Assembly (NCBI GenBank): GCA_039980135.1
Contig: JBDXCV010000003.1
Span: 372,001 to 436,000, forward strand
Length of the DNA stretch: 64,000 nucleotides
Direction of reading: 5' to 3'
Source: Alphaproteobacteria bacterium
Lineage (GTDB): Bacteria; Pseudomonadota; Alphaproteobacteria; UBA6615
This document shows, piece after piece, positions 36,782-55,075 of this stretch. Made by a program: the position numbers and the translations under genes. How positions within the stretch are numbered: position 1 is the first letter of the stretch; each line of letters starts with the position of its first letter. The notes beneath the pieces were generated by a model, which was not told the origin of the DNA, did no database searches, and saw only the letters and a program-made list of their open reading frames with translations.

Positions 36782-38188
36782 ATGACGGCGCGAAGCGAAG
36801 AAGTATCGACGAATCTGGTCGCCCGCGCGGTCACCGCGCTGCGCGGCGGCACCGCGCCGGTGCTCCCGCAACGGGTGCGCGAGGATGTCGCGCGCCAGCA
36901 GGACCGCTCGGAACAGATCATCTCGATCGTGCAGATCGTCATCGTGCTGCTGTTCGGCGGGTTGTTCCTGGCCGCACCGGGTGGCGGCGGGGTCGGCGCC
37001 GACGGGATCGACCTCGCTTTCGAGCTGACCCCCTGGGCGCTCGGTGGGTATCTGGTTTTCTCGGCCGCCCGCTACTGGGCGAGCTGTCGGATGCGCCTGC
37101 CGGGCTGGTTCCTGACATTGTCGGTGATCGCCGACATGGCGTTGCTGATGGTGCTTATCTGGTCGTTCCACCGCACCTATCAGCAACCGCCGTCATTCTA
37201 TCTGAAGGCACCGACGCTGCTTTACGTGTTCATCTTCATCGCCTTGCGGGCCCTGCGTTTCGACGCGCGCTATGTGCTGCTCGCCGGGGCCACCGCCATG
37301 GTCGGCTGGTCGGCGCTGGTGTTGTATGCCGCCGCGTTCGAGACCGGCGAGATGACGATCACCCGCAACTATGTGGAATACATCACCGGCAACACGATCC
37401 TGCTGGGGGCCGAATTCGACAAGCTGATCACCATCGGCGTGGTGACGGCGGTGCTGGCCGCCGCCGCCGTGCGCGCGCGTCAGATGCTTTTTACGGCGGC
37501 TTCGGAGGGCTCCGCGAAACGGGACCTCTCGCGCTTCTTCGATACCTATGTGGCCGACCGGATTACCGGCAGCGAGCATGAACTGCGCGCGGGCGAGGGC
37601 CAGCATCGCGATGCCGCCGTGGTGTTCTTCGATATCAGGGGTTTCACTCGGTTGTCGGGCCGGCTCGACGCCGACGCGCTGGTGCAGCTGCTGTCGGAAT
37701 ACCAGTCACGGATCGTGCCGATCGTGCAGGACAATGGCGGCGTCATCGACAAGTTCATGGGCGACGGGGTGATGGCGACCTTCGGGGCGGTGGTGCCGAA
37801 CCGGACTTACGCCGCCGACGCGCTGCGGTCGATCGAGGCGGCGATCGACGCGATAGACCGGTGGAACGCGAAGCTGGTGGCGGCGGGCAAGCCGGCGCTG
37901 GACGTGAACGCGGCGGCCGCGTCGGGCGACCTGATCTTCGCTGCGGTGGGCGACGAGAGCCGGCTCGAATACACGGTGATCGGTGACACGGTGAATTTGG
38001 CGGCGAAGCTGGAGAAACACACCAAGCGCGAGGACGCCTGCGCGGTCGTGACCGTCGAGACCTACGACCTGGCGCTTCAGCAAGGTTTCGCGCCGAAGGA
38101 CCCCGGCGAGCGGCGGATCGGCCGCGTGGTCGAAGGGGTCGCGGACCATGTAGATCTGGTGGCGCTGGGGCGCAAGCGGGCGGTTTAG
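36782..38188 (+). CDS. Membrane-anchored class III adenylate/guanylate cyclase
   Basis: A 468-residue protein. Residues about 45-232 form a membrane region with about six hydrophobic spans (IVQIVIVLLFGGLFLAA through ITIGVVTAVLAAAAV), and the C-terminal half is a class III cyclase domain. The metal aspartates are D284 (VFFDIRGFTRL) and D328 (KFMGDGV). K324 and T398 occupy the substrate-selecting positions and favour ATP. The transition-state asparagine is N405 in GDTVNLAAKLE, but the usual arginine four residues on is K409. Activity may thus be altered. It is the only nucleotide cyclase in the window; a cyclic-nucleotide-binding protein lies 16 kb away. Confidence 0.9.
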   Translation: MTARSEEVSTNLVARAVTALRGGTAPVLPQRVREDVARQQDRSEQIISIVQIVIVLLFGGLFLAAPGGGGVGADGIDLAFELTPWALGGYLVFSAARYWASCRMRLPGWFLTLSVIADMALLMVLIWSFHRTYQQPPSFYLKAPTLLYVFIFIALRALRFDARYVLLAGATAMVGWSALVLYAAAFETGEMTITRNYVEYITGNTILLGAEFDKLITIGVVTAVLAAAAVRARQMLFTAASEGSAKRDLSRFFDTYVADRITGSEHELRAGEGQHRDAAVVFFDIRGFTRLSGRLDADALVQLLSEYQSRIVPIVQDNGGVIDKFMGDGVMATFGAVVPNRTYAADALRSIEAAIDAIDRWNAKLVAAGKPALDVNAAAASGDLIFAAVGDESRLEYTVIGDTVNLAAKLEKHTKREDACAVVTVETYDLALQQGFAPKDPGERRIGRVVEGVADHVDLVALGRKRAV

Positions 38189-38206
38189 GCGCTTGCGCGC
38201 AGACCC

Positions 38207-39433
38207 CTATTTATACGGATCGGCCGCATCCCGGAGGCCGTCGCCGAGGAAGTTGAAGGCCAGGATGGTCAGGATGACCGGGATCATCGGCGCCATCAGC
38301 CACGGATAGAGCACCACGACCTGGATGTTCTGGGCCTCGTTGAGCAGCACCCCCCAGCTGGTCACCGGCGGACGCAGGCCCAGGCCGAGGAAGCTGAGCG
38401 CCGTCTCGCCGAGGATCATCTCGGGAATCGCGAGGCTCGCCGAGGCGATCAGATGGCTGGCGAAGCTGGGCACCAGGTGGCGCCCGATGATGCGTTTGGT
38501 GCTGGCCCCCATCAGGTTTGCCGCGACGGCGAAATCTTCCTCGCGCAACGACAGGAGCTTGGACCGCACCGCGCGGGCGAGTGAGGGCCAGTCGAGCATC
38601 GCCAGGATGAGCGTGATGCCGAAATAGATCACCAGCGGCGACCATTTGGCCGGCAGCGATGCCGAGAGCGCCATCCACAAAGGCAGGCGCGGGAATGACT
38701 TCAGCACTTCGATCAGTCGCTGGACGCCATTGTCGACCCAGCCGCCGTAGAAGCCGGCCACGCCACCGATGGCGATGCCGAGCCCGAAGCTGAGGAAGAT
38801 TCCGATCAGGCCGATCGACAGCGAGATCCGCGAGCCGTAGATCATGCGCGAGAGCATGTCGCGGCCGAGCCGGTCGGTGCCCAGAAGGAACACGGGCTGG
38901 CGCCGGCTCTCGGGACAGAACAGATGGAAATCGCCCTTGAACAGGCCCCAGAATTCATACTCGGACCCGGGGTAACCGCCCGAACAGAAGAAGCGGATGC
39001 GGTTCACCTTGCTGGTGTCGACCGTATAGATCTTCTGCAGGGTCTCGGGGTCACGCTTGGACCTGTAGCCATACACAAACGGCCCGACGAGCTTGCCCTC
39101 GTGGAAAAGATGCACGGCCTGGGGCGGCGCGTAGATGCTGCGCACGTCGCGGTGCTGCAGTTCGTACGGCGCGAACACTTCAGCAAAGGCGGCGACCAGA
39201 TACAGGAAGATCAGGAAGAAGCCTGCGGCGACCGCAATCTTGTGGCGCTTGAGTTTCCACCACATGAGCTGCCACTGGGAAGCCATGTAATATTTTTCCT
39301 GCTCCGGCGTGAGCACCACCTCGACATCGGCGTCGAAGGGCTCGTCGGACACGAAATGGGGAATCCTGTCCGGCGGGCTGTTGTCAGGCTTTTCGTTACC
39401 GGGGGTCTCGTTATCGGGGGTGTCGGAACTCAT
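38207..39433 (-). CDS. Peptide-type ABC transporter permease (DppC/YejE-like)
   Basis: Second inner-membrane subunit of a peptide-class ABC importer, 408 residues. After a charged, Pro/Asp-rich N-terminal tail (about 70 residues) comes TM1 (VAAGFFLIFLYLVAAFAEVF), then an unusually long periplasmic insertion of about 110 residues, then the core permease with the EAA-type loop EEDFAVAANLMGASTKRIIG. ATG 39433 overlaps the upstream permease by 4 bp. The frame continuing to 39940 is antisense to that gene. The long insertion resembles the YejE-like subgroup more than DppC. It is the last gene of the operon. Confidence 0.9.
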   Translation of the reverse strand: MSSDTPDNETPGNEKPDNSPPDRIPHFVSDEPFDADVEVVLTPEQEKYYMASQWQLMWWKLKRHKIAVAAGFFLIFLYLVAAFAEVFAPYELQHRDVRSIYAPPQAVHLFHEGKLVGPFVYGYRSKRDPETLQKIYTVDTSKVNRIRFFCSGGYPGSEYEFWGLFKGDFHLFCPESRRQPVFLLGTDRLGRDMLSRMIYGSRISLSIGLIGIFLSFGLGIAIGGVAGFYGGWVDNGVQRLIEVLKSFPRLPLWMALSASLPAKWSPLVIYFGITLILAMLDWPSLARAVRSKLLSLREEDFAVAANLMGASTKRIIGRHLVPSFASHLIASASLAIPEMILGETALSFLGLGLRPPVTSWGVLLNEAQNIQVVVLYPWLMAPMIPVILTILAFNFLGDGLRDAADPYK

Positions 39434-40428
39434 CGGGTCGTTCCCCCGCTGAGCCGGATTCTTGGATCGAGCGCCGCCAGGGCGAGATCTGACAGGAGCG
39501 TGCCGATCACGACGAGGAGTGCCAGGAACATCAGGAAGGAGCCGGCGAGGAACATGTCCTGGGCACGCAGCGCGTCGAGCAGCATGCGGCCGGTGATGTC
39601 GAGGTTGAGCACCACGGCGACGACGGCGGAGCCGGAAATGACTTCCGGTAGGATCGAGCCGATATCCGCGATGAACGGGTTGAGTGCCATGCGCAGCGGG
39701 TACTTCCAGAGCAGCTTGCGCGGGGCGAGCCCCTTGGCCCGGCCGGTGACCACATACTGTTTCTGCAGCTCGTCGAGCAGGTTCGCGCGCAGGCGCCGGA
39801 TCATGCCCGCGGTGCCGGACGTGCCGATGACGATGACCGGAATCCACAGATGCTCCAACACCGAGAGCATCTTGTCGAGCGACCAGGGCGCGTTGCGATA
39901 CTGGTCGTCCATGATCCCGCCGATGGACGTGTCGAACCACTGGTTGGCCAGATACATCAGCACGAGCGCGAGCAGGAAGTTCGGGGTCGCGAGGCCGAGA
40001 TATCCGATCAGGGTCGCGACGTGATCGGACACGGAGTATTGGCGGGTCGCCACATAGGTGCCGATCACGAAGCTGACGATCCAGATGAAGGCGATGGTCG
40101 AGAAGGTCACGACAAACGTCAGCAGGATGCGCTGGCCGATCAGCTCCGACACGGGACGGTTATGCTCGAACGACCAGCCGAAATCCCCCTGGAGCAGCCC
40201 GAAGAGCCAGGAGAAATATTGTTCGACGGGGGTTTTATCGAGTCCGTAGGCGCGCCGCAGGGCCTCGATCTGGTTCTGATCCACGGCCTCGCCGCGCGAC
40301 GCCATCTCCGCGATCAGGGTCTCCAGATAATCTCCCGGCGGGAGCTGGATGATGATGAACACGATCGCGGAGACCGCGAGCAGTGTCGGGATCATCAGGA
40401 GCAATCGGTGGATGATGTAGCGAAACAT
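39430..40428 (-). CDS. Peptide-type ABC transporter permease (DppB/YejB-like)
   Basis: First inner-membrane subunit of the importer, 332 residues, with the family N-terminus RYIIHRLLLMIPTLLAVSAI, a periplasmic loop with DQNQIEALRRAYGLDKTPVE, and the EAA loop LQKQYVVTGRAKGLAPRKLL near residues 223-242. Six membrane spans. It lies 34 bp after the substrate-binding gene and overlaps the next permease by 4 bp, consistent with paired synthesis of the two membrane subunits. Confidence 0.93.
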   Translation of the reverse strand: MFRYIIHRLLLMIPTLLAVSAIVFIIIQLPPGDYLETLIAEMASRGEAVDQNQIEALRRAYGLDKTPVEQYFSWLFGLLQGDFGWSFEHNRPVSELIGQRILLTFVVTFSTIAFIWIVSFVIGTYVATRQYSVSDHVATLIGYLGLATPNFLLALVLMYLANQWFDTSIGGIMDDQYRNAPWSLDKMLSVLEHLWIPVIVIGTSGTAGMIRRLRANLLDELQKQYVVTGRAKGLAPRKLLWKYPLRMALNPFIADIGSILPEVISGSAVVAVVLNLDITGRMLLDALRAQDMFLAGSFLMFLALLVVIGTLLSDLALAALDPRIRLSGGTTR

Positions 40429-40462
40429 TACGGGTTATCGATCTCGGACTCTGCGAATGCGG

Positions 40463-42346
40463 CTAGGGGCGTTCGAAGTAGAAGGTGTCGGGCAGGTAGA
40501 TGCCGAAATGGGCGCCCGGGTCCCAGGCGTAGATCGCCTTCTCGGGCACACCCTTGAGGTTCTGCATCACGACGACCGGCTGCTTGGTGCAGCACACGAC
40601 GCCGATGGTGAAGGTCTCGTCGGCGTTGATCTGCAGGATGCGTTCCCAGAATTCGGTGCGTTCGGCCTGGGACGATGCGGATTGCCAGCGGCGGAACAGG
40701 TCGAACAATTCCTGGGCCGCGGGCATGTCGATGGCGTCTCCGGCCTGGCCCTCGGTCTGATAATACTGGCCCCATTTCGGCCACTGGTACTGATCCTGCC
40801 GGGTCGGGACGAATTCCTCGGGGCTCATATTCGCGGTGACGATGCCGTTGTTCGCCCCGAACCAGACCCCCATCATGGTCTCGCCTGCGAACACCCGGTT
40901 GCGGAACACCTCGCGCTGGGACGGGCGGGTGAAGATCTTCACGCCGATGTCGAGCCAGGAATCATGGACCAGCTCGAGCACGTCGGTCTGCTCGGTCTCC
41001 TCGCCCGCGGTCTCGACGACGATCTCGAGCCGCCGCCCGTCGGGCAGCAGGCGGACCCCGTCCTTGTCGCGTTTCTCGAGGCCCATGCCATCGAGCAGCG
41101 CGTTGGCGCGGTCGAGATCGAACGCGGCCCATTTGGTCTGGAATTCCTCGCGGAACAGCGGGCTCTGCGGCAGTACCGTGTTGTTCGACGGCTGGGCGAG
41201 ACCGAAATAGATCACCTCGTTGATCTCCTCGCGGTCGATGGCGAGGCTGAGCGCGTGGCGGAAATCACGGTTGCGGAAGACCTCACGCCAGCCCGGGTCG
41301 GCGATGTGCAGGTTGGGGTAGAGCGCGATCCGCGCGCCGAGCGAGGTATCCCACAACAGGGTCTTGAAGCCCTCCTTCTCTTCCGACTGTTTCAGGAAGG
41401 TGAAGTGGCTCATGAACAGGTTGCGGGCCTGCAGGTCGATTTCGCCGGCGCTGGCCTTGGCCGGGATCAGCTTGCCGTCGGAGATGTTCATCAGGACCCG
41501 GTCGATATAGGGCAGCTGGTTGCCGGCCTTGTCGACCCGATGGAAATAGGGATTGCGCATGAACACGAACTGCTGGGCCGGCGGGCGGATCGTGTTGAAC
41601 CAGGGCTGCAGGGTCGGCAGCGCCGGGTTGTCCATGTCATAGAGATTGTCCTGGCTGTTATGCAGGGGTCCCCAGCCACGCATGCGCCGCTTCTTGATGA
41701 ATGCCTCGAGCTCGGCCGGGTCGGCGTATTTCTTGTGGAACTGCTTCAGATAATGGGCGGGCCGGTAAATGAAGGGCGGGCGCGGGCCGGCCAGTGCGGG
41801 CAGGAAGAACGGGTTCGGTTTCGACCAGCTGAAGCGAATTGTTTGCGCGTCGAGGATTTCGACCTTCGGGACCTCGCCCTCGACCTTCAGCAGGACCGGC
41901 GGCCCGAGCGGGGACAGGTCGGAATTGTTGGCCATTTCCTCCCACCAGTAACGGAAATCCTCCGTCGTGAAGGGATGGCCGTCGGACCATTTGTGATCCT
42001 TGCGGAGCTTGAAGGTAAAAATTTTGTCGTCGACCGTCTCGAAGGATTCGAGGATATCCGGCACCAGATTGTAGCCGCCGTCATAGCCGACGAGCCGGGC
42101 ATAGCCGTAGACCGTCATCAGTCGGGTGTCGCGCGCGCGGGCCATCGCGATGCGCAGATCGCCGCCATAGACGCCGGGGCCGGTGTCGATGACGCGCGGC
42201 GGACGGGGCAGCCGTTGGTCGACCGGCGGGAGGTAGCCTTCCTTGACCTCGGCCGCGAGCATGGGAGATTCCGCGAAGTCGGCGGCAGCGGTTGCCGGCG
42301 TCAAGGCGAGTGCGGCGATGATGGGGGCAATGATCTTCAGGCGCAT
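40463..42346 (-). CDS. Extracellular solute-binding protein family 5 (YejA-like)
   Basis: Periplasmic receptor of the peptide importer, 627 residues, in the size range of YejA and larger than DppA. The signal peptide RLKIIAPIIAALALTPATAA is followed by ESPMLAAEVKEGYLPPVDQR. The family 5 core is visible in SFETVDDKIFTFKLRKDHKW, DGHPFTTEDFRYWWEEM and FRNRDFRHALSLAIDREEIN. Start ATG 42346 shares one base with the stop of the ATPase gene. Substrates for relatives are oligopeptides, antimicrobial peptides, or murein or opine compounds; which applies is unknown. Confidence 0.92.
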   Translation of the reverse strand: MRLKIIAPIIAALALTPATAAADFAESPMLAAEVKEGYLPPVDQRLPRPPRVIDTGPGVYGGDLRIAMARARDTRLMTVYGYARLVGYDGGYNLVPDILESFETVDDKIFTFKLRKDHKWSDGHPFTTEDFRYWWEEMANNSDLSPLGPPVLLKVEGEVPKVEILDAQTIRFSWSKPNPFFLPALAGPRPPFIYRPAHYLKQFHKKYADPAELEAFIKKRRMRGWGPLHNSQDNLYDMDNPALPTLQPWFNTIRPPAQQFVFMRNPYFHRVDKAGNQLPYIDRVLMNISDGKLIPAKASAGEIDLQARNLFMSHFTFLKQSEEKEGFKTLLWDTSLGARIALYPNLHIADPGWREVFRNRDFRHALSLAIDREEINEVIYFGLAQPSNNTVLPQSPLFREEFQTKWAAFDLDRANALLDGMGLEKRDKDGVRLLPDGRRLEIVVETAGEETEQTDVLELVHDSWLDIGVKIFTRPSQREVFRNRVFAGETMMGVWFGANNGIVTANMSPEEFVPTRQDQYQWPKWGQYYQTEGQAGDAIDMPAAQELFDLFRRWQSASSQAERTEFWERILQINADETFTIGVVCCTKQPVVVMQNLKGVPEKAIYAWDPGAHFGIYLPDTFYFERP

Positions 42347-44244
42347 CACGCGACCTCCGGCAGGGCGCCGCGTTCCGGGTCGGCGCGTACATAGTGCCCG
42401 TCTTCCAGCTCGACGAGCCGGGGGCGGGATTGATTGTCGATTGTGAAGGGCGCTGGCCAGCGGGCCGGATCGGAGGCGCGATCCTCCATCAGGTCGGCCA
42501 GATCGAGGCGGTTGTCGAGGCTCGGCTCGGGCACGGCCGAAAGCAGCGCCTGGGTGTAGGGGTGGGACGGGTTGCGAAACAGGGTCTTCGCCGGCGCCAG
42601 CTCGACCAGGCGCCCGGCGCACATCACGGCGATCCGGTCGGCGATGTAATCGACGACCGCGAGGTTATGGCTGATAAACAGATATGTCAGCCCGAGGGCC
42701 GACTGGAGATCCTTGAGCAGGTTGAGGATCTGGGCCTGGATCGACACGTCGAGCGCGCTCACCGGCTCGTCGCAGATCAGCAGGTCCGGTTTGAGCGCGA
42801 GCGCGCGGGCGATGCCGATGCGCTGGCGCTGGCCGCCGGAGAAGCTGTGGGGGTAGCGGTTGAGGAAGCGGGGGTCGAGGCCGACCAGGCGCATCAGCTC
42901 GCGCACCGTGTCGGCGCGGGTCTCGGCCGTGCCGATGTCATGGATGACGAGGGGTTCGGCGATGATCTCGAACACGGTCATGCGGGGGTTCAGGGAGCCG
43001 AAGGGGTCCTGGAAGATTAACTGTACCCGGCGGCGGAAATCCTTGAGCTCGCGGCCCTTGAGCGCCAGCACGTCGACCGGCTGGCCGCCGTCATAGAAGG
43101 TAACGCTGCCGCTGTCGGTGGCGAGCGCACGCATGATCATCTTCGACGTCGTGGTCTTGCCGCAGCCGGATTCGCCGACCAGGCCGAGGCATTCGCCGCG
43201 CGCGATCTCGAAGCTGACATCGTCCACGGCGAGGACTGAGCGCGCTTCCTGGGAGCCGAAATAGCTGCCCTTGCGGATCAGGAAGCTCTTGGAGATGCCG
43301 TCGACCTTGAGAAGCGGTGTGCCGGCGGCCGCCTGGGGCGCGCGGTCGGCATCGGGCTTGATCAACTCACCGGATTCCGCCTTGATCTCGCGCAGCGGCA
43401 CGAGGCGTTCGCCCTCGGCGAGGCCGAAGCGCGGCACGGCGTTGAGCAGCGCCTTGAGATAGGGGTGGCCGGGTGCGCGATAGATATCCTCGACGGTGCC
43501 GCTTTCCATCACCTTGCCGCGGAACATCACCACGACCTCCTCGGCGACGTTCGCGACCACGCCCAGATCATGGGTGATCATCAGGACCGCCATGTCGAGT
43601 TCCGACTGAAGGTCCTTGATCAGCTTCAGGATCTGCGCCTGGATCGTCACGTCCAATGCGGTGGTGGGTTCGTCGGCGATGAGCAACGCGGGACGGCAGA
43701 CCAGCGCCATGGCGATCATGGCGCGCTGGCGCAGCCCACCCGACAGCTCGAAGGGATAGGTCTTGAGCGCGCGGGGCGGGTCGGGGAAGCCGACCAGGCG
43801 CAGCATGTCGGCGGCGAGCTCGGTGCCGGTCTGCTTGTCCACGTCGCGGTGCAGGTGGAGTGCCTCGGTGATCTGGTCGCCGACCGTGTGGAGCGGCGAC
43901 AGGGATGTCATCGGTTCCTGGAAGATCATCGACACCCGGCCGCCGCGGATTGACCGCATTGCCTTGCCGTCGCGTTCCAGTTTCGCCAGATCGACCGGGG
44001 TGCCGTCGCCGCGCGGATCGGTGAACAAAATCTCACCGCCGGCGATGCTGCCGATGTTCGGGAGGATGCCCATGATGGCCTGGCTGCAGACCGACTTGCC
44101 CGAGCCGGATTCGCCGACCAGTGCCGTGGTGCCGCCCTGGCGGACCCGGAAGGACACGCCGTCCACGGCGCGCAGCTGGTCACCGTGCACGGTGAAGTCG
44201 ACCTTGAGGTCGCGAACGGTCAGGAGGTCGGTCATCGTCGCCAA
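42346..44244 (-). CDS. Fused double ATPase of peptide-type ABC importer (DppD-DppF / YejF-like)
   Basis: Both nucleotide-binding domains of the importer in one 632-residue chain. The first has Walker [11 protein letters not shown] (about residues 39-48) and signature [15 protein letters not shown]; the second has [10 protein letters not shown] (about residues 345-354) and [15 protein letters not shown]. Each carries an intact Walker B ([22 protein letters not shown]) and ends with the oligopeptide C-terminal extension ([26 protein letters not shown]). The start may be ATG 44244 or 44235; it overlaps the upstream gene by up to 13 bp. ATP hydrolysis motifs are complete, in contrast with the ABC protein at 51414. 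Confidence 0.95.
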
Positions 44245-45595: not shown

Positions 45596-45745
45596 GGGTT
45601 TGCAAACACTCCCTGCGCGGCCCGAACCCCCCAATCCGGACTGTCTCCCAGCCATCAGACTAGCCGGTTCGAGAGCCGGGAGTAACCCGGATTTCGGGGA
45701 AATTCATGGTTAACTCAGGTCAAGGTCGGGCCAGGTCCGGACTGA

Positions 45746-46921
45746 TCAGGCGCCGCGGTGGCGATTCAGCGCCGATTTCAGGATTTCCGCGCTGTTCCGC
45801 GCACCGCCGAGGTCGAGGCCGGAATCGGTGGCCCGATCGACGGTTACCGCCCGATCGACCGCCGCGGCGACGGCCGGCGGGTTGACTGCGTCGGGTTCGA
45901 TGATTTGCAGGGCCCCCCGGTCCGCCAGCAAGCGGCAGCGCAGGGTCTGTTCGCTTTCGAGCCCGCCTGCATAGGGGATGCAGACGGCCGGCGTGCGGGC
46001 GGCCAGAACCTCCATCACCGTGTTGTAGCCGCCCTGGGAAATCGACAGCCGGCAATTCGCGAGCAACCGAGGAAAATCGGGCCGCGATCGCTCGACCGTG
46101 ATCCCGCCGGGTGCGCTGTCGCGGTATGCCGTAAAGTCTGTTTCCGGCAAATTGTGACCGATCAGGACCCGCCACGGCGCATCCGACAGGCCGGGTGCGG
46201 CGGTCAGCGCGCGCGCGCCGATGGCCGCTTCGAGCATGTCGTCGCTCACCGCGCCGCCGCCGGTGGACACGATGACCTCGCCCGCGCCGGGGCCCTTCTC
46301 GTTGCGCGCGGGCGCCGGATCCACGACATAGCCGGTGTAGCGGGAGATATCCGCGATCTCGGACATGCGGGGAAAGGTCTCGTCGAAGGCGATGAAGTCG
46401 GGGTCGCCATGGATCAGCACGAGGTCGAAAAAGTCGCGGGTCCGCGTCACCATCTCGTCGATGCGCTCGGGCTTGCCGGGTTCGACCAGGATGTCTCGTA
46501 CCGACGAGACAATGAGCGGCCGATTGGTGCCCTGCCCGCGGGCGGCTGCGATGAGAGGCTCGATCTCGAAACGCATCTGCCGGCGCCCGAACGGATACAT
46601 CTCGATCAGGATGATGTCCGGCTGCTCGTCTTCGAAAATCGCAAGCAAATGGTCGCGTCGGCGGGCCTTCCACGCGTCGTCGATCCTGTTGTCGTCCGCG
46701 TCGACCAGCACCTTGAAGAACTTGTCGGTCGCGCGGGTCGGCGGCAGCTGGGCGAAGCGCGCGGCCCCAGCGTCAAAGCCGGGCACGGCGGTGCCGCCAG
46801 ACACCAGCAGCACGTCGAAACCTCCGGCGTCGAGCGCGCGGGCCAGGGTGCCGGTGCGCATCAGATGGCCGATGCCCAGCAGATGTTGCACGTAGAACAG
46901 AATTTTCGGGCGCGGGCTCAT
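45746..46921 (-). CDS. MurG-like glycosyltransferase
   Basis: GT-B fold transferase, 391 residues. The N-terminus KILFYVQHLLGIGHLMRTGT corresponds to the glycine-rich acceptor loop of MurG/GT28 enzymes, and the C-terminal domain has VIVSTGGGAVSDD and the donor-binding SISQGGYNTVMEVLAARTPA (about residues 292-311). It is the last gene of a five-gene operon and overlaps the phosphatase by 4 bp. It is a paralogue of the gene at 49971 (same loop, FGLGHLRRC there). Donor and acceptor are unknown; peptidoglycan MurG itself is expected elsewhere in the division cluster. Confidence 0.85.
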   Translation of the reverse strand: MSPRPKILFYVQHLLGIGHLMRTGTLARALDAGGFDVLLVSGGTAVPGFDAGAARFAQLPPTRATDKFFKVLVDADDNRIDDAWKARRRDHLLAIFEDEQPDIILIEMYPFGRRQMRFEIEPLIAAARGQGTNRPLIVSSVRDILVEPGKPERIDEMVTRTRDFFDLVLIHGDPDFIAFDETFPRMSEIADISRYTGYVVDPAPARNEKGPGAGEVIVSTGGGAVSDDMLEAAIGARALTAAPGLSDAPWRVLIGHNLPETDFTAYRDSAPGGITVERSRPDFPRLLANCRLSISQGGYNTVMEVLAARTPAVCIPYAGGLESEQTLRCRLLADRGALQIIEPDAVNPPAVAAAVDRAVTVDRATDSGLDLGGARNSAEILKSALNRHRGA

Positions 46922-47538
46922 TTGCCGGTGCCTTGTGTCGGCGCGGCGAGCGAAACATTGAGCGCATCGATTTCCGCGCTGCCGTCAGGTGACGCATGGA
47001 AGATCTGTGCCTTGCGCCGCGACATCTCGTCCGGAGTTTCGCCGGTCAGGTTCCAGCCGGTGGCCAGCGCATAGACGGTGCGGATGACCCCGCGATGGGT
47101 GACGACGATGCGCGGCGCGGGGTCGGTGGCGAGTTCCGCCAGCGCATCGGCGACCCGTGGCAGCATGTCGAGCCGGCTCTCCCCGCCTTCGGGCCGATGG
47201 TCGCCCAGGTGGGCGTCGTCGCCGAGTTTGGCCTCCATTTCGTGCAGGTTCCGGCCTTCCCAAATGCCCCAATGCTTCTCGACCAGACGCTCGTCATAGG
47301 TGATCGGCCCGAGGCCCGGATTGTTGGCCTTGAGGATGTCCGCCGTTTCGCGACAGCGGACGAGCGTGCTGGCGACGATCGGCAGGCCGGCGAGTTCGCC
47401 CAGAAAATCGGAGGGCAAACGCCAGGCAGCGACCATGGCGCGCCCGTCGTCATTCAGCGGGATGTCGCGGCGGCCCTGCATGCGCCGCTCGACATTCCAG
47501 TCGGTCAGGCCGTGACGGATAAAGGCGAGCCGGGTCAC
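46918..47538 (-). CDS. Histidine phosphatase (phosphoglycerate-mutase family)
   Basis: A 206-residue phosphatase with the catalytic RHG motif in AFIRHGLTDWNVERRMQGR (about residues 5-23), STLVRCRETADI and the second catalytic histidine in RIVVTHRGVIRTVYAL. It is not glycolytic-mutase length, so a small-molecule or sugar-phosphate phosphatase is most likely. It overlaps both neighbours by 4 bp inside the glycosyltransferase operon. A plausible job is dephosphorylating a sugar or nucleotide-sugar product, but that is inference from position. Confidence 0.88.
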   Translation of the reverse strand: MTRLAFIRHGLTDWNVERRMQGRRDIPLNDDGRAMVAAWRLPSDFLGELAGLPIVASTLVRCRETADILKANNPGLGPITYDERLVEKHWGIWEGRNLHEMEAKLGDDAHLGDHRPEGGESRLDMLPRVADALAELATDPAPRIVVTHRGVIRTVYALATGWNLTGETPDEMSRRKAQIFHASPDGSAEIDALNVSLAAPTQGTGK

Positions 47539-48692
47539 GCGGCGCGCCCGGCGATGGAGACGGTGTTCAGGGTGGAGTCGAGCATGGCGGCCGCCGTGGG
47601 GAGATCGAACTTGGCGCCGATCCGGCGCATGGCGGCGGTGCCCATCCGGGCGCGCAGGTCCGAATCGTCCATCAGGCGCCGGACCGCTGCGGCAAACGCG
47701 TCGGGGTCGCCCGGAGCGGGCAACAATCCGGTCACGCCGGATCCGACAATATCCGGTACGCCGCGCGCCTTGCCGGCGATCACGGGCAGGCCCGCGGCCT
47801 GCGCCTCGAGTAGCGCGATACCGAATGCCTCATCGACGGCCGGCCAGACGAGGATGTCGGCGAGCGCGTAGGTCTCGGCCAGGCGTTCGGGCTGGAGCGT
47901 GCCGAGTAATCTGACCCGGCCGGGTGCCGCGGCCTCCAACGTCGCCTCGATCTCCGCGCGTCGGGGGCCGTCGCCCGCGACGAGCAGGCGCCAGTTTCCC
48001 CCGTCGAGCTGCGGCAGCGCGGCGGCGAGCTGTTCGTAGGAGTCCTGCTTGGCGCCGGCCCGCATCATGCCGACCGCCAGCAGAATCAAGGCGTCGGCAG
48101 GCCAGCCGGTGTCGCGGATGAGCGCGTCACGCAGATTGCCGCGCCGTGCGGCCGCTGCCGTGAACGGGGCGGCGTCGACGAAAGGAAACATCCGCCGGTG
48201 AAGCACCGGCGGGGTCGCGACCGGCTGGAGGCAGTCCCAGTCGTCGCTGTTGAGGGTGAGGATCGCATCGGCACGCGCGATGGCGGCGTTGGCGCCCCGG
48301 TAGCCGATGTCCCACGGACCGCCGGCGCGTTTGGGTGCGGTGGACGCCTCGGTGATGATGTAGGGAATGCCAAGTGAATCCGCGACCGGTGGGCCGATCC
48401 AGTCAGGGGCCTTGTGATAGACGTGATAGGTGAACCAGGCCTCGGGACGTTCATGCGGCGGGCGTGCCGCGAGGCGCCGGATCAGCCGCGCGGCGAATTT
48501 CTCGCCCAGGACCCTGAGCCGAGCCTGGCGGTCCGGGTCGCCTGCCCCGTCCCGGCTGACGAATCGCGAGACGAGCTCGGGTTTGTGACCGGCATGGCGG
48601 AGTGCGAGCAAGAGCAACCGCGCCAGATGGCGATCGCCCGAGGGAACCGGATGATCGGGCGGCTTCATCGGCGCGTAGAACGCGATACGCAT
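47535..48692 (-). CDS. Glycosyltransferase family 4
   Basis: GT-B transferase of 385 residues, opening MRIAFYAPMKPPDHPVPSGD with the P-S-G-D acceptor loop. The donor domain has WRLLVAGDGPRRAEIEATL and the E-x7-E region DEAFGIALLEAQAAGLPV (about residues 307-324). The frame runs upstream to 48776, but ATG 48692, 1 bp after the previous stop, is the real start. It overlaps the phosphatase by 4 bp. The acceptor is unknown; GT4 enzymes here are probably retaining. Confidence 0.88.
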   Translation of the reverse strand: MRIAFYAPMKPPDHPVPSGDRHLARLLLLALRHAGHKPELVSRFVSRDGAGDPDRQARLRVLGEKFAARLIRRLAARPPHERPEAWFTYHVYHKAPDWIGPPVADSLGIPYIITEASTAPKRAGGPWDIGYRGANAAIARADAILTLNSDDWDCLQPVATPPVLHRRMFPFVDAAPFTAAAARRGNLRDALIRDTGWPADALILLAVGMMRAGAKQDSYEQLAAALPQLDGGNWRLLVAGDGPRRAEIEATLEAAAPGRVRLLGTLQPERLAETYALADILVWPAVDEAFGIALLEAQAAGLPVIAGKARGVPDIVGSGVTGLLPAPGDPDAFAAAVRRLMDDSDLRARMGTAAMRRIGAKFDLPTAAAMLDSTLNTVSIAGRAA

Positions 48693-48693
48693 G

Positions 48694-49974
48694 TCAGGCG
48701 GCTGCCGCGCTGGTGTCGGATGCAGGCGGGCCGGCGGCGTCGCGCAGGTCGTCGGCGATCGCGTCGAGGCCCGCATTCATGTCGAAACGCTCCCGCACAT
48801 TGCGCGCACCGGCGGCGGCGATCGCCGCCCGGCGCCCGGCGTCTGCGGCCAGCGTCTGAATTGCGTCGGCGAGTGCCGCCGGATCACCTGGCGCCGTCAG
48901 AATACCGGTCTCGCCATCGGTGATCAGTTCGGGGATGCCCGCCTCGTCGGTTGCCACGCAGGCCACGCCCATCGACTGGGCTTCGAGCAGCACGTTGGGC
49001 AGCCCGTCGCGATCGCCGTCGGGCGCGATCTTGCTGGCCAGTACGAACATGTCGGCGCGGGCGAGCAGCGCGCGGACGTCGGTCTGGGGCTGGCGCCCGT
49101 GCCAGTCGATCCGGCCGTCGATGCCGAGCCGCCGGGCCTGATTTTGAAGCGCGCCGGACAGCGCGCCGCCGCCGATATGTTCGAGCCGCCAGTCAAGATC
49201 AGCCGGAAGGCGGGCGAGCGCATCAAGCAGGTCGTCATAGCCTTTCTTGGCCACGAGGCGCCCGACCGACGCAATCTGAAGCGGTCCGGTCGTGTCGGCG
49301 GTTTTGTCGGGAGAGTCGTTCCGGGGGAAGCGCGCGAAATCGAGGCCGTGATAATTCAGATGAATCCTGTCCGAGACGTCGCCTGCGAGCGAGCGCAGCT
49401 GTTCGGCCCCGGCGCGGGTGCAGGTCGTCAGCCACGCCGCGTCGGTAATCTTTTCAGCGATGTCCCAGTCCGGGGTCGTCCAGATGTCCTTGGCATGGGC
49501 GGACACGGCGAACGGCAGGCCGCGCATCGTCGCGGCGTAGCGGGTGACGGAGGCCGGCGTGTGCAGGAAATGGGCGTAGAGCAGGTCTGTAGCCGTGTCG
49601 AGATCGGCGGCGAGTACGCAGGCCTGGCCGAAACGGCGTATTCGATTGGGCGTGCGATCACGGCGCCAGTCGGCGCGGAATCTCGACCAGGCGGCGCGAT
49701 AGCCGGGCAGACGTCGTGCGCGCCGCCAGCCGCGCAGAACCCGCAGGGGTTCACGCCAGAGATACTCGGGCAGATAGGTGACGGGCGCGCTGATCTCGTC
49801 ATGGATCGGATGGGTCGCGGGATCATAGGGCGCGCGCAGTGACTGGATGTCGAGCGCGAACCCGCGTGCTTCGAGGCCGTGAAGTTCCTGGGCGATGAAG
49901 GTTTCGGAAAGGCGCGGATAGCCCTTCACGATCACGGCGATGCGTGATCCGGCCGGCAATGTCCCGGGGCTCAA
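48694..49974 (-). CDS. Glycosyltransferase family 4
   Basis: A 426-residue GT4 enzyme of the colanic-acid-transferase type. The N-terminus RIAVIVKGYPRLSETFIAQE is the recognised acceptor-domain start, and the donor domain shows QIASVGRLVAKKGYDDLLDA, WRLEHIGGGALSGAL and RDGLPNVLLEAQSMGVACVA with the E-x7-E pair. It overlaps the upstream MurG-like gene by 4 bp and is followed 1 bp later by the next GT4. Two consecutive GT4 genes suggest two sugar additions to a growing chain. Confidence 0.9.
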   Translation of the reverse strand: MSPGTLPAGSRIAVIVKGYPRLSETFIAQELHGLEARGFALDIQSLRAPYDPATHPIHDEISAPVTYLPEYLWREPLRVLRGWRRARRLPGYRAAWSRFRADWRRDRTPNRIRRFGQACVLAADLDTATDLLYAHFLHTPASVTRYAATMRGLPFAVSAHAKDIWTTPDWDIAEKITDAAWLTTCTRAGAEQLRSLAGDVSDRIHLNYHGLDFARFPRNDSPDKTADTTGPLQIASVGRLVAKKGYDDLLDALARLPADLDWRLEHIGGGALSGALQNQARRLGIDGRIDWHGRQPQTDVRALLARADMFVLASKIAPDGDRDGLPNVLLEAQSMGVACVATDEAGIPELITDGETGILTAPGDPAALADAIQTLAADAGRRAAIAAAGARNVRERFDMNAGLDAIADDLRDAAGPPASDTSAAAA

Positions 49975-51233
49975 GAGTGACCCGTATGCTGCCCGGATCT
50001 GCCGCGATCGACGACATGCATGCCCGCATGGCGGCGTCCGGCGGCGATTTCGACGAGCCGGTTCACATTGCGCAGACCATCGAGAAGGCCCGGCACGACG
50101 ACTTCCGAGGGCACGCTCTGCTGCGGCAGATGTCGGAGCGCGGTCGCCATCACCTTCCAGTCGGGCAGCGAGGTCTGGTCGATGGCAGCCGCTTCTGGGA
50201 CGAGCATCTTCACCAGCCCCATCTCCTGCATGCGCGATGCGCGCAGAAATTGTTCGAGGCGCGGCTTGGTACGCGGCACGATCAGCGACGGCCGATCGAA
50301 GGACAGGATTTCACACACCGTGTTGTAGCCGCCCATGGCGACGATCCCGGCCGCATCCGAAATCAGGGATTCGGGGTGCGTGTCGAAGGTGACCGATTCG
50401 ACATTGTGCAGCCGGGCGATCCGGGCGGTGAATTGCGAGACGAGGTCGGGGTCGAGAAACGGCCCGAACATGAAGAAGGCGGGCACCGGCTGCGCGGAAT
50501 CATTCTCGTAGGCGCGCAACACCCAGTCGAACATGAGCTCGCCGTCGCCGCCGCCGCCGGCCGTGACCATTATATATGGCCGGTCGCCGAAAGGTTTGTC
50601 GGCATCGAGGGCGGCCGCGCCGCTTCGCACCGCGCGGCGCAGATACCCGGTATAGCTGGTCTTGCGCGCGATGGCGCCCGGCAGGTCGAGTCCTTCGAGC
50701 GGGTTCGAGACCTGGGGCAGGCCGTAGATCCAGATTTCGTCGTAGAGATTTTCCAGCGCCGGCAGCACGTTCTTGGTCTGCCATTCGGGCGCCAGCAGGA
50801 GCGGATCATCGAGAATGTCGCGCAGGCCGAGGATCAGCTGGGTGCCGCGTTTCTTGAGGGCAACGAGGGTGTCGAGCACTTCGCCGCGCAGGCCGTGGGG
50901 CTCCTTGTCGACGATAAACACGTCGGGCTCGTAGGACAGCGCTGTGTGGCGAATGATGTTGGCGCGCAGGGCGACCGTTTCCTCGATGTCCATCGGCAGT
51001 TTCAGGGGCTTGTACTCCCCGTTCTGCAGCTTGATGACACCGGGGATGCGCACGAAATCGACCCGGTCGCGGAATTCGAAGTTCCCGATAATCGGGGAGC
51101 CGGACAGGATCAGCACACTCAGGCCCGGATCGTGCTGGACCAGCGCATGCGCGATGGCGCGGCAGCGGCGCAGATGGCCGAGGCCGAAGGTATCGTGGCT
51201 GTAGATCAGGACTCGCCGGTTGCGCGTGGGCAA
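49971..51233 (-). CDS. MurG-like glycosyltransferase, first gene of the operon
   Basis: A 420-residue GT-B protein with the N-terminal VLIYSHDTFGLGHLRRCRAI loop, IVTAGGGGDGELMFD-type donor domain start (YIMVTAGGGGDGE) and GIVAMGGYNTVCEILSFDRP near residue 305. The frame opens at TTG 51239, but TTG 51233 has GGGAG six bases upstream and gives MPTRNRRVLIYSHD, so I prefer it. It shares fold and loop with the gene at 45746, so the operon is bracketed by paralogues. It diverges from the large ABC protein gene across 180 bp. Confidence 0.85.
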   Translation of the reverse strand: MPTRNRRVLIYSHDTFGLGHLRRCRAIAHALVQHDPGLSVLILSGSPIIGNFEFRDRVDFVRIPGVIKLQNGEYKPLKLPMDIEETVALRANIIRHTALSYEPDVFIVDKEPHGLRGEVLDTLVALKKRGTQLILGLRDILDDPLLLAPEWQTKNVLPALENLYDEIWIYGLPQVSNPLEGLDLPGAIARKTSYTGYLRRAVRSGAAALDADKPFGDRPYIMVTAGGGGDGELMFDWVLRAYENDSAQPVPAFFMFGPFLDPDLVSQFTARIARLHNVESVTFDTHPESLISDAAGIVAMGGYNTVCEILSFDRPSLIVPRTKPRLEQFLRASRMQEMGLVKMLVPEAAAIDQTSLPDWKVMATALRHLPQQSVPSEVVVPGLLDGLRNVNRLVEIAAGRRHAGMHVVDRGRSGQHTGHS

Positions 51234-51413
51234 AACCAACTCCCGTTCGTGGCGCGCGTTCGCCGGGACTATGGCACAACCCGGTTATTCGCCGAAAGTC
51301 CTTGATTCATCAACAATCGGAAGAACTTGCTCGCGAATGAGTTACCGTTTTTGCTTGTATGCGCTAGTCTCCGCTCTGATATGCGTGAAGTATAGAGTTT
51401 CCGGGAGAAGCGT

Positions 51414-54092
51414 GTGAACGAACGTCTCGAACGCAGCATGTACAGTTTTGTGCTGCGCTACAGCGGACGCCAGCAGCTGGGCATACTGGCTTTCGTGGTG
51501 TTGTCCTGGCCCGTGGGTTTCATGCTCCTGGATCTGCCCAAGCAGATTATCAACCGGGCCCTGGAAGCGAAGGAGGATGTCTTCCAGCTGGCGGTCCTGG
51601 GGGCGCTGGAGATCCCGCTGCAGGTCTCCCAGTCCACCTTCCTTGTCATCCTGTGCACCGTTTTCCTGGCGCTCGTTGTCGTCAACAACGGGCTCAAGTT
51701 CCACATCAACACGACCAAGGGGCGGACGGCCGAACGGCTCCTGCGCCGCCTGCGCTATGCGCTCTATTCCCGGGTCCTGCGATTCCCGATCCCGCGCTTC
51801 AAGCGGACCAGCCAGGGCGAGATCATCTCCATGATCACCGCCGAGACGGAGCCGGTCGGCGCCTTCTTTGTGGGTGCGGTGGTCGATCCGATCTTCCAGG
51901 GCGGGCTGCTGCTCGTGGCGATCGGCTTCATCATTGTTCAGAATCCGTGGCTCGGCCTGGCCGCCGCTGCCTTCTATCCGCTGCAAATCTATGTGGTGCC
52001 GCGGCTGCAGAAAAAGGTCAGCGCGTTGGGCAAGGCCCGGCTGCGGGAAATACGCCATTTGTCGGATCATGTGGGCGAGACCGTCAGCGGTATCGTCGAC
52101 ATCCACGCCAATGACGCCTCGAACCTGGAACTCGCGCGTTTCACGGACCGCCTGAGCAACATCTACAATATCCGGTTCGAGATTTTTCAACGCAAGTACA
52201 TGATCAAGGCGCTGAACAACTTCCTCGACAAGCTGGCGCCATTTCTCTTCTACCTGTTCGGCGGCCTGCTGGTGATCGACAACAAGCTCGATATTGGACA
52301 GCTTGTGGCGGTGATCGGCGCGCATCGGGAGATGTCGTCGCCGTGGAAGGAAATGCTCAACTGGTACCAGCAGCAGGCCGATGCGCGGGTCAAGTATGAC
52401 CAGGTGGTCAGCCAGTTCGATGTTGACGGGATGCTCGACGATGCGATGCAGCACACCGACCCCGAGCCGGGTTTCTCGCTGGCCGGCGAGATCGATATTT
52501 CGAATCTCAGCCTGGTCGACGAAGACGAAGTGCGCCGGCTCGCCAATCTGACGATCAAGCAGGTCACCGATTCCAATCTTGCGGTCGTCGGCGCGGGCAA
52601 CAGCGGGAAAGATTATCTCGGCCAGGTGCTGGCGCGGCTCGCGGTTCCCACATCGGGCCAGATCAAGATTGCCGGCCATGACCTGACCGCGCTGCCGGAA
52701 TCGGTCACCGGCCGGCGCATGACCTATGTGTCGGGGGCGCCGTTCATGCAGTCCGCCAGCGTGCGCGATAATCTTCTCTACGGGCTCAAGAACCGCCCGC
52801 TGCGCCCGGCCGATTATGATGACGAGGAGGCCCCCGCGCGCGAACGGGACTTCGCCGAGGCCGCACGCACCGGTAACATCGTGTTCGACTATCGGGCGGA
52901 TTGGGTCGATTTCGAGGCGGCCGGCGTCGAGAATATGGACGAGCTGTTCACCCGCCTGATCCAGGTGCTCGATATCGTCGAAATGTCCGACGACATCTAC
53001 AATCTCGGCCTGCGCGGCACGATCGACCCGGATCGCCGCCAGGACATCGCCGAGGCCGCACTGAAGGCCCGCGCGGGCCTCACCGAACGCCTGAGCGAGC
53101 CGGAATATGCCGGGCTGGTCGAGAAATTCGACAGGTCGCGCTACAACACCAATGCCAGCGTGGCGGAGAACCTCCTGTTCGGCACGACGGTCGGCGATGC
53201 ATTCGATCACGATCGCATGGCCGAGAATGATTATGTGCTGCAGGTCCTGCGCGATGCCGACCTGATCGACGACATGCTGGCGGCGGGACGGTCGGTCGCC
53301 GAGACGATGATCGAAATCTTCGCGGATTTGCCGCCCGGCCACGAATTCTTCGAACAATATTCCTTTATCAGCTCGGACGATCTGCCAGAGTTCCGCACGC
53401 TCCTGTCGCGCACGGAAAAGAGCGGCGCTGACGACATGCGGCCCGAGGATCGCGCATCGCTGCTGTCGCTGCCGTTCAAGGTGGTGACCGCGCAGCACCG
53501 GCTCGGGGTCGTCACGGACGAACTGGAGACGAAGATTCTTCGCGCCCGCGAACTGTTCGCCGAGAACCTGCCCGATGATCTTCGCGGCGGGGTCGAGTTT
53601 TTCGAGCCGGAGAAATATAACGCTGCGGGGTCGCTCCAGGACAACATCCTGTTCGGCAAGCTGGTCTATGGACAGGCGGAGGGCATGCGCCGGATCGGCG
53701 GCCTGGTGGCGGAGACGCTCGACAATCTCGGGCTTCGCGGCGCGGTTCTCGAAGCGGGGCTGGAATTCCAGGTCGGGGTCGGCGGCAGCCGCCTGTCGTC
53801 CGGTCAGCGCCAGCGCATGGGTATTGCCAGGGCCCTGCTCAAGCGCGCCGATATCATGGTGTTGAACGAATCATCTTCGGCGCTCGACCCGGCAGCCCAG
53901 GACCGCCTCGCCGCGAAGGTGCTCGAAGCCCGCGGCGGCCAGGGTGTGGTCTGGGTCGCGAACCGGGCCTCGATGGCGTCGCAGTTTGCCCAGGTCGCCG
54001 TGCTGGCCGATGGCCAGATCGCCGAACAGGGCAGCTATGACGAGTTGAACAAAGAGGGGACGGCCCTGCATGAACTGCTTCAGTCCTCCTAG
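51414..54092 (+). CDS. Aberrant ABC exporter-like protein with triplicated Q-loop segment
   Basis: An 892-residue chain. Residues 1-330 form a type I exporter membrane domain (about six spans; LRFPIPRFKRTSQGEIISMI intracellular loop). The ATPase region starts near 358 and is abnormal. Walker A reads GAGNSGKD (393-400; Asp replaces Ser/Thr). The segment usually found once after the Q-loop occurs three times: ASVRDNLLYG (448-457), ASVAENLLFG (581-590) and GSLQDNILFG (739-748), separated by about 130-150 residues of inserted, charged helical sequence. Signature LSSGQRQ is intact (794-800), but Walker B is IMVLNES (N818 for Asp) and the H-loop histidine is N850. GTG 51414 has GGGAGA upstream. Substrate unknown; reduced ATPase is likely. 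Confidence 0.85.
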   Translation: MNERLERSMYSFVLRYSGRQQLGILAFVVLSWPVGFMLLDLPKQIINRALEAKEDVFQLAVLGALEIPLQVSQSTFLVILCTVFLALVVVNNGLKFHINTTKGRTAERLLRRLRYALYSRVLRFPIPRFKRTSQGEIISMITAETEPVGAFFVGAVVDPIFQGGLLLVAIGFIIVQNPWLGLAAAAFYPLQIYVVPRLQKKVSALGKARLREIRHLSDHVGETVSGIVDIHANDASNLELARFTDRLSNIYNIRFEIFQRKYMIKALNNFLDKLAPFLFYLFGGLLVIDNKLDIGQLVAVIGAHREMSSPWKEMLNWYQQQADARVKYDQVVSQFDVDGMLDDAMQHTDPEPGFSLAGEIDISNLSLVDEDEVRRLANLTIKQVTDSNLAVVGAGNSGKDYLGQVLARLAVPTSGQIKIAGHDLTALPESVTGRRMTYVSGAPFMQSASVRDNLLYGLKNRPLRPADYDDEEAPARERDFAEAARTGNIVFDYRADWVDFEAAGVENMDELFTRLIQVLDIVEMSDDIYNLGLRGTIDPDRRQDIAEAALKARAGLTERLSEPEYAGLVEKFDRSRYNTNASVAENLLFGTTVGDAFDHDRMAENDYVLQVLRDADLIDDMLAAGRSVAETMIEIFADLPPGHEFFEQYSFISSDDLPEFRTLLSRTEKSGADDMRPEDRASLLSLPFKVVTAQHRLGVVTDELETKILRARELFAENLPDDLRGGVEFFEPEKYNAAGSLQDNILFGKLVYGQAEGMRRIGGLVAETLDNLGLRGAVLEAGLEFQVGVGGSRLSSGQRQRMGIARALLKRADIMVLNESSSALDPAAQDRLAAKVLEARGGQGVVWVANRASMASQFAQVAVLADGQIAEQGSYDELNKEGTALHELLQSS

Positions 54093-54137
54093 CGCGGGGC
54101 GGGGCGGAAACCGGTGGCCGATGGGGAGTAACGAAAC

Positions 54138-54590
54138 GTGAGCCTGAACGAAGAAGTCGAACTGCTGCGGAATATCCCGCTGTTTGCGAAACTCGAGCCG
54201 TCGAAGCTGAAGCTGTTGGCGTTCACGGCCGAGCGCATCACCTATGAGCCGAACCAGGTCCTGTTCAACCAGGGCGATGTGGGCGACGCGGCCTATATCA
54301 TTGTCGACGGGGCGGCGAAGGTGATCGTCGACACGCCGGACGGCGAACTCGAAGTGGCATCGCTGGGGCGCAATGATTTCGTCGGCGAAATCGCGATCCT
54401 GTGCGATGTGCCCCGCACGGCCACTGTGCGGGCGAGCGCCAAGACCGTCACCCTGAGAATTACCAAAGACCTGTTCTTTCGTCTGGTGGCCGAGTTCCCG
54501 GAGATGTCGGTCGAGATCATGCGGGAGCTGGCGTCACGCCTGGAGCACACGACCCAGCAGTTGCGCGAGGCGCTGGCGCAAAACTCGTGA
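54138..54590 (+). CDS. Single-domain cyclic-nucleotide-binding protein
   Basis: A 150-residue protein that is only a cNMP-binding domain, with no DNA-binding helix-turn-helix, kinase or channel part. The phosphate-binding cassette is complete: F81-V-G-E84-I-A and P92-R93-T-A-T, with Glu for the ribose hydroxyl and Arg for the cyclic phosphate. A long C-terminal helix (LASRLEHTTQQLREALAQNS) could mediate dimerisation or binding to a partner. It lies 46 bp after the aberrant ABC protein and overlaps the methyltransferase (GTGA). The layout suggests it regulates the ABC protein in response to cAMP or cGMP; this is inference. Confidence 0.92.
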   Translation: MSLNEEVELLRNIPLFAKLEPSKLKLLAFTAERITYEPNQVLFNQGDVGDAAYIIVDGAAKVIVDTPDGELEVASLGRNDFVGEIAILCDVPRTATVRASAKTVTLRITKDLFFRLVAEFPEMSVEIMRELASRLEHTTQQLREALAQNS

Positions 54591-55075
54591 GCCGGCTCGA
54601 CAGTTTCATCCGGCGCATGCAGGCGCAGCGCGACTGCCTCAACAACGCGGCCGGGATGATCGCCGACGTGCCTGGTGCGGTGTTCGATCTGGGTCTCGGC
54701 AATGGCCGCACCTTCGATCATTTGCGTGAGACCCTGCCCGACCGCGAGGTTTTCGTGTTCGACCGGGTGGTGAACGCCAATCCCAAAAGCACCCCCGACG
54801 CCGACCATCTGTTTCTCGGCGAGGTGGTCGACCAACTGGCCTTGCAACAGAGCCGCTTCGCGAACGCCGTGGCGCTGGTGCATTCGGACCTCGGGACGGG
54901 CACCGCGGAGGATGCGCCGCTGACCGCGGCCCTGATCCCGCTGTTGCGCCCGGTGCTGGCATCCGGAGCGGTTCTGGTGGCGAACAATCCGTTTCCCGAT
55001 GCCGGGTGGGAGGCCCTGCCGCTGCCGGACGGCGTGCCGGCGGAGCGCTATTTCATGTATCGGGTTGGCGCTTAG
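54587..55075 (+). CDS. Small class I SAM-dependent methyltransferase
   Basis: A 162-residue protein, with N-terminal SRLDSFIRRMQAQRDCLNNA and the SAM-binding motif I VFDLGLGNGRTFDHL (about residues 31-45), then EVFVFDRVV (acidic end of strand 2) and HLFLGEVVDQLAL. It resembles the short Methyltransf_17 group (name from memory). The start GTG 54587 overlaps the stop of the cNMP-binding gene (GTGA), so the two are coupled. Acceptor unknown; O-methylation of a glycan is possible given the neighbours, but a protein or lipid is equally allowed. Confidence 0.8.
   Translation: MSRLDSFIRRMQAQRDCLNNAAGMIADVPGAVFDLGLGNGRTFDHLRETLPDREVFVFDRVVNANPKSTPDADHLFLGEVVDQLALQQSRFANAVALVHSDLGTGTAEDAPLTAALIPLLRPVLASGAVLVANNPFPDAGWEALPLPDGVPAERYFMYRVGA

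Follow-up and report, generated by a model that had tools for sequence, protein, structure and literature searches.

An ABC-type protein without a normal ATPase site lies in a glycan-related gene cluster

The window (the whole stretch of 64,000 nucleotides analyzed here) encodes a pseudo-ABC protein, for which we use the shorthand ABC*, followed by a small cNMP-binding-domain protein and flanked by a set of conserved neighbors (Table 1). The ABC* reading frame is uninterrupted, and the same sequence is present in the genome assembly; an antisense ORF of 718 residues (window 51342-53498, minus strand) overlaps it and probably arises from high GC content. A Pfam scan of ABC* returned ABC_membrane and a split ABC_tran match with no other domain, and the helical sub-domain of its nucleotide-binding domain (NBD) exceeds the normal one by about 290 residues. 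No second full-length copy was found in the same genome, which carries, outside the window, a partial membrane-domain relative (L002, C3:1048127-1048996; about 30% identity over residues 4-331; 397-residue open frame).

The cluster spanning 36782-55075, of about 10-13 genes, recurs across many alphaproteobacterial families and is reordered in rhizobia; no published description of it was found in the literature searched. A cyclase gene lies within 20 kb in 13 of 30 loci, where about 3 would be expected at approximately 11 cyclases per genome (P about 1e-6 if the loci are independent); since the loci share ancestry, this count is suggestive and does not represent independent events. At two loci (G561 and G639), a cyclase-like gene directly follows the cNMP gene.

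Beside the ABC*-cNMP locus of Rhizobium johnstonii, the 69-90 kb stretch of pRL11 (L123) contains two nucleotide cyclases and DUF3095, along with a polysaccharide deacetylase, an FkbM methyltransferase, and a nucleotide sugar dehydrogenase, and a similar gene set is present in Mesorhizobium sp. WSM1497. The rhizobial gene pRL110056 is required for root colonization (PMC11103875), and locus-tag counting indicates that it may be the nucleotide sugar dehydrogenase neighboring the rhizobial ABC* locus.

Table 1. Genes of the cluster and features of ABC* (window positions; percentages are from hhalign)
Feature	Position	Strand	Description
Nucleotide cyclase	36782..38188	+	PF00211 E 1.6e-11, second search agrees; orthologue-like genes occupy this position in other genomes
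Oligopeptide-type importer, Yej-like layout	38207..44244	-	Two permeases, SBP_bac_5 protein, ATPase with two ABC domains; conserved neighbor
Second GT28-like glycosyltransferase	45746..46921	-	PF04101 E 2.8e-7; conserved neighbor
Histidine-phosphatase-like protein	46918..47538	-	RHG motif, by eye; conserved neighbor
GT4 glycosyltransferase	47535..48776	-	PF00534; conserved neighbor
GT4 glycosyltransferase	48694..49974	-	PF00534; conserved neighbor
Divergent GT28-like glycosyltransferase	49971..51239	-	Weak PF04101 match, MJ1255-like; conserved neighbor
ABC* pseudo-ABC protein	51414..54092	+	892 aa, GTG start
Exporter-type transmembrane domain	51414..52433	+	Residues 1-340; PF00664 at 72-301, E 5.5e-23
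NBD N-terminal core	52461..52712	+	Residues 350-433; 99.6% to normal exporter core
Walker A GAGNSGKD	52590..52613	+	Residues 393-400; Asp in place of Ser/Thr
Helical unit 1	52713..53111	+	Residues 434-566; holds the normal post-Q-loop segment; 97.4% to normal Q-loop segment
Segment copy 1 ASVRDNLLYG	52755..52784	+	Residues 448-457
Helical unit 2 (extra)	53112..53585	+	Residues 567-724; 98.3% to copy 3
Segment copy 2 ASVAENLLFG	53154..53183	+	Residues 581-590
Helical unit 3	53586..53846	+	Residues 725-811; runs into signature helix; 99.3% to normal Q-loop-to-Walker B segment
Segment copy 3 GSLQDNILFG	53628..53657	+	Residues 739-748
NBD C-terminal core	53847..54089	+	Residues 812-892; Walker B IMVLNE (Asn818), H-loop Asn850; 99.3% to normal core
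cNMP-binding-domain protein	54138..54590	+	150 aa; PF00027 E 1.7e-21
Methyltransf_17 family protein	54590..55075 (start approximate)	+	PF12692 E 1.7e-51; usual third gene, present in most loci

The repeat most likely comprises the helical sub-domain

The first-pass annotation had described three copies of an SVxENxLFG-type segment in ABC*, and on recheck their positions (Table 1) were exact, as was the likeness of the flanks of copies 2 and 3 (RYNTNAS at 576-582 and KYNAAGS at 734-740). The long insertion between Walker A and the signature was also borne out, with the Walker A Lys lying about 396 residues from the signature, a distance of about 98 in an exporter encoded by the same genome. All three segments persist across the 66 aligned full-length homologues from independent genomes (down to about 31% identity); the Asn of the motif is conserved in 63 sequences for copy 1 and in all 66 for copies 2 and 3. 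When residues 341-892 were shuffled, three motifs occurred in 0 of 20,000 shuffles, and even one motif in only 15. Given these shuffles, the same layout in 66 homologues, and dN/dS ratios well below 1, there is practically no chance that the three motifs reflect coincidence or an assembly or frame artefact.

Family profiles of ABC* sub-regions were then compared pairwise with hhalign, using the membrane domain and the NBD cores as control blocks. Copy 2 (564-640) matched copy 3 (722-815) at 98.3% (E 1.4e-14, 62 columns) and copy 1 matched copy 3 at 77.5% (61 columns), compared to mostly less than 7% for pairs of control blocks. The reference for a normal NBD was a profile of 13 ordinary exporter NBDs from the same genome; unit 2 matched normal helical sub-domains weakly (41-59%), and the controls gave low values against this profile. 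Furthermore, copies 2 and 3 are each preceded by a helix (536-572 and 696-730), and these two helices resemble each other (94%). Their candidacy as sequence relatives of the true signature helix was unsupported (0.6% and 1.0%, respectively), and the presence of two extra whole NBDs was rejected, as no extra core was found and the units matched NBD cores at less than 1%.

The full-length ABC* model (pLDDT 82.5) contains one complete ABC nucleotide-binding fold, on which the ComA NBD aligned over 239 of 239 residues (Z 31, rmsd 1.8), and a membrane domain with Z about 29 to several exporters. The insert modeled alone reached a pLDDT of 90 and gave no Foldseek match at E <= 0.001. Its best VIA match was human ABCB1 475-549, which corresponds to the Q-loop-to-signature helical sub-domain, on residues 574-718 (model 116-260; Z 4.6, rmsd 3.1, 75 aligned), a region that includes the second pseudo-signature helix (696-730); the next VIA rows were unrelated proteins with Z <=3.8. 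This Z 4.6 match of the predicted unit 2 would be weak alone, and it counts because the sequence profiles pointed to the same sub-domain. Taken together, the triplicated segment first noted stands, and profile comparison and predicted structure extend it to a larger repeated unit: ABC* most likely contains a tandem triplication of the helical sub-domain, with unit 2 being a likely rather than proven third copy.

Catalytic residues are eroded across the family

The altered Walker A, Walker B, and H-loop residues annotated initially (Table 1) were all verified, as was the intact signature (LSSGQ at 794-798). The Q-loop Gln is also absent from ABC*, which retains Lys399 and Glu819. Among the 66 homologues, none has the Q-loop Gln, 7 have the Walker A Ser/Thr (57 carry Asp or Glu there), 9 the Walker B Asp, 23 the H-loop His, 35 the Walker A Lys, and 38 the catalytic Glu. 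The signature is eroded in most relatives, with its second Gly found in 16 of 66. All six catalytic positions are intact in no homologue, and 17 have lost all six. Mg-ATP binding and hydrolysis depend on the Walker A, Walker B, Q-loop, and H-loop residues, so an acidic residue in Walker A would argue against ordinary Mg-ATP binding. The initial description of a regulatory or very slow ABC protein fits this family-wide loss, from which an absent or slow ATPase activity may be surmised.

Sites are partly kept in some members, including L010 (Lys, Asp, Glu, and His) and L084-L086 (Lys, Ser, Asp, and Glu), such that ATP binding or slow hydrolysis may survive. The latter three, which belong to f156, differ from most relatives in keeping the Walker A Ser and the Walker B Asp/Glu, and their helical unit 1 contains additional low-complexity linkers, rich in Asp/Asn, between copies 1 and 2.

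Helical units and membrane domain are under the strongest constraint

ABC* was detected in 97 of 289 genomes sampled across Alphaproteobacteria (E <= 1e-60), i.e., about a third, with carriers including Rhizobium, Mesorhizobium, Sinorhizobium, Azospirillum, and Ruegeria. In a phylum-wide sample, matches outside Alphaproteobacteria amounted to one membrane-domain-only protein. No published description of the family was found in the literature searched; a published formaldehyde-tolerance locus considered as ABC* turned out to be another locus. The usual annotation of its members, "ABC transporter ATP-binding protein," is probably misleading.

A search for homologues that have a single normal NBD without the insertion found none among the 66 full-length sequences. 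The stretch from copy 1 to copy 3 has a near-constant length over many families, and W497, L533, R553, N586, R712, N744, and G748 are invariant. Conservation in ABC* is highest in the membrane domain. In comparisons with close relatives, dN/dS was mostly 0.01-0.14 for helical units 1-3, 0.05-0.08 for the membrane domain, and 0.10-0.29 for the two NBD cores, the least constrained part. Ordinary exporters conserve the NBD better than any other part, and the selection pattern of ABC* is thus inverted, which points to the helical platform and the membrane domain as its probable working parts.

Relatives without an NBD also exist. These proteins of about 420 aa are 39% identical to ABC* residues 5-336, occur in copper-resistance clusters on Azospirillum and Sulfitobacter plasmids (L096 9770-11029 and L097 9773-11077), and fall among full-length members in the tree, on long branches. 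Their existence suggests that the ABC* membrane domain can act without an NBD.

A cNMP-type domain accompanies nearly every ABC* gene

Among 41 ABC* ORFs with flanking sequence, a cNMP domain is encoded within 1.2 kb in 31 and fused at the C-terminus in 8. At one more locus (G131), inspection by eye placed such a domain on an overlapping frame, so that 40 of 41 loci are paired or fused, and the only ORF without a cNMP domain is a divergent copy (G283). C-terminal fusions were found in Rhodobacterales, in Azospirillum thermophilum, and in members of three other families; all three fused domains examined score above the Pfam cut-off. A tree of the membrane domain places the fusions of f156 and those of Rhodobacterales/Azospirillum in separate, well-supported groups. 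The link to the adjacent cNMP protein, which the first-pass annotation had offered as a possibility, is strongly supported by this near-universal adjacency and by the fusions, which together provide good evidence for a physical partnership. As facts of sequence, the triplication of the segment, the erosion, and the partnership can be regarded as close to certain.

In the 150-aa protein, Pfam detected PF00027 only and no DNA-binding domain. Its phosphate-binding cassette (GEIAIL-PRTATV) is intact, and among 74 homologues, Glu84 is kept in 69 and Arg93 in 73. The fused cNMP domains of Rhodobacterales (L079, L081, and L095) have lost consensus cassette residues (GDLAI...PRQLNL or similar), and the sensor may itself be degenerate there. 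In the HetC exporter, the cNMP domain binds ppGpp and not cAMP (PMC10986499); the ligand of the ABC* partner therefore need not be cAMP.

Proposed mechanism and alternative explanations

We propose, with a probability of about 0.5 for the entire chain, that ABC* is an ABC-fold membrane switch driven by a messenger and serving a surface-glycan system. It would be a membrane protein of type IV ABC-exporter fold, presumably a dimer, in which an ATP-driven pump has been turned into a membrane switch. The NBD would have retained its fold while ATP hydrolysis fell below a useful rate, and the triplicated helical sub-domain would have become a conserved working surface. In normal exporters, the helical sub-domain couples the nucleotide site to the membrane domain. 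The cNMP-type sensor, encoded by a separate gene here and as a C-terminal fusion elsewhere, would bind a nucleotide second messenger, often supplied by a cyclase of the same cluster, and would touch the NBD/helical platform. The membrane domain would then change state, the change presumably reaching it by the coupling route that ATP uses in pumps. The putative output is control of the surface-glycan system, consisting of the glycosyltransferases and the Yej-like importer. More tentatively, ABC* may represent a widespread ATP-independent class of ABC-fold proteins in which a partner or fused sensor switches the membrane domain directly through an NBD with a triplicated helical sub-domain.

Several features could also be reconciled with a protein that has remained an exporter or flippase, its likely substrate being an intermediate glycan of the linked glycosyltransferases, and that binds ATP, turns it over slowly, and is gated by the cNMP domain. 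The exporter fold extends from end to end, Lys399, Glu819, and LSSGQ are retained, and glycosyltransferases are present in the cluster; moreover, degenerate sites in known exporters still bind ATP (PMC7756269), and HetC is a working exporter that needs its cNMP domain (PMC10986499). However, a homodimer would have both sites degenerate, the Q-loop Gln is missing in 66 of 66 homologues, an acidic residue occupies the Mg/phosphate-contacting Walker A position in 57 of 66, and the NBD cores evolve under the weakest constraint, which makes this explanation rather unlikely in our view. Partner halves of heterodimeric exporters are usually co-encoded, and annotated loci and cluster maps revealed no conserved canonical half nearby, whereas all other cluster parts are conserved. 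It is therefore improbable that ABC* serves as the degenerate partner in a heterodimeric exporter and pairs with a canonical half from another locus, even though its own genome encodes canonical half-exporters and heterodimers with one eroded site are common (PMC7756269).

Selection argues against the NBD being a passive relic, with the membrane domain working alone and the insert merely stabilizing the fold. Helical units 1-3 have dN/dS values as low as those of the membrane domain, and the repeat region combines invariant residues with a near-constant length over many families. While NBD-less relatives of the membrane domain exist and this domain is the most conserved part of ABC*, we consider such a relic very unlikely.

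Comparison with known systems

ABC proteins are textbook ATP machines. ABC* is a variant of the ABC exporter fold that is not described in the literature searched, and it represents a large natural family found across numerous alphaproteobacterial genera, model rhizobia among them. In this family, the ATPase core is eroding, whereas the helical sub-domain has apparently been multiplied and is preserved by selection. The proposed messenger-driven switch would add an ATP-independent input, the cNMP-type sensor, making the family a natural test of whether NBD motion can drive an exporter membrane domain without ATP. It would also hint at what the many nucleotide cyclases of Alphaproteobacteria may be for, and it offers a functional lead for the glycan-related gene cluster.

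Like type IV ABC exporters of the MsbA/ABCB1/ComA class, ABC* has a membrane domain, a complete NBD fold, and a signature motif (LSSGQ). Unlike them, it carries about 290 extra residues as probable additional helical units, and its family has lost the Q-loop, the Walker A Ser/Thr, the Walker B Asp, and often the H-loop residue. ABC* reaches none of the NCBIfam equivalogs, scoring 169.6 bits against MsbA (TIGR02203) for a cut-off of 602. Degenerate-site exporters (TAP, the MRP1/CFTR class, and TM287/288) share with ABC* eroded catalytic residues kept through evolution, but they keep one canonical site, whereas an ABC* homodimer would have both eroded and no canonical half is co-encoded. SUR1 and SUR2, the regulators of KATP channels, use the ABC exporter fold as a regulator rather than a pump; they bind and use Mg-nucleotides and control a Kir channel. 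The comparison with ABC*, which is without a Kir-type partner, is a works-like one only, concerning the exporter fold as a regulator.

HetC, a PCAT of Nostoc, resembles ABC* in combining an ABC exporter with a cNMP-type domain, which is required for HetC function (PMC10986499). HetC differs by its C39 peptidase, its N-terminal cNMP domain, and its essential ATPase; ABC* has neither of the first two and presumably lacks the third. The cNMP domains fused to ABC* are C-terminal, and Pfam detected ABC_membrane and ABC_tran only, with no C39 peptidase. Finally, the ABC* partner shares the cNMP domain and phosphate-binding cassette of CRP/FNR-type proteins, but it is a 150-aa protein in which no DNA-binding domain was found and which is genetically tied to a membrane protein.
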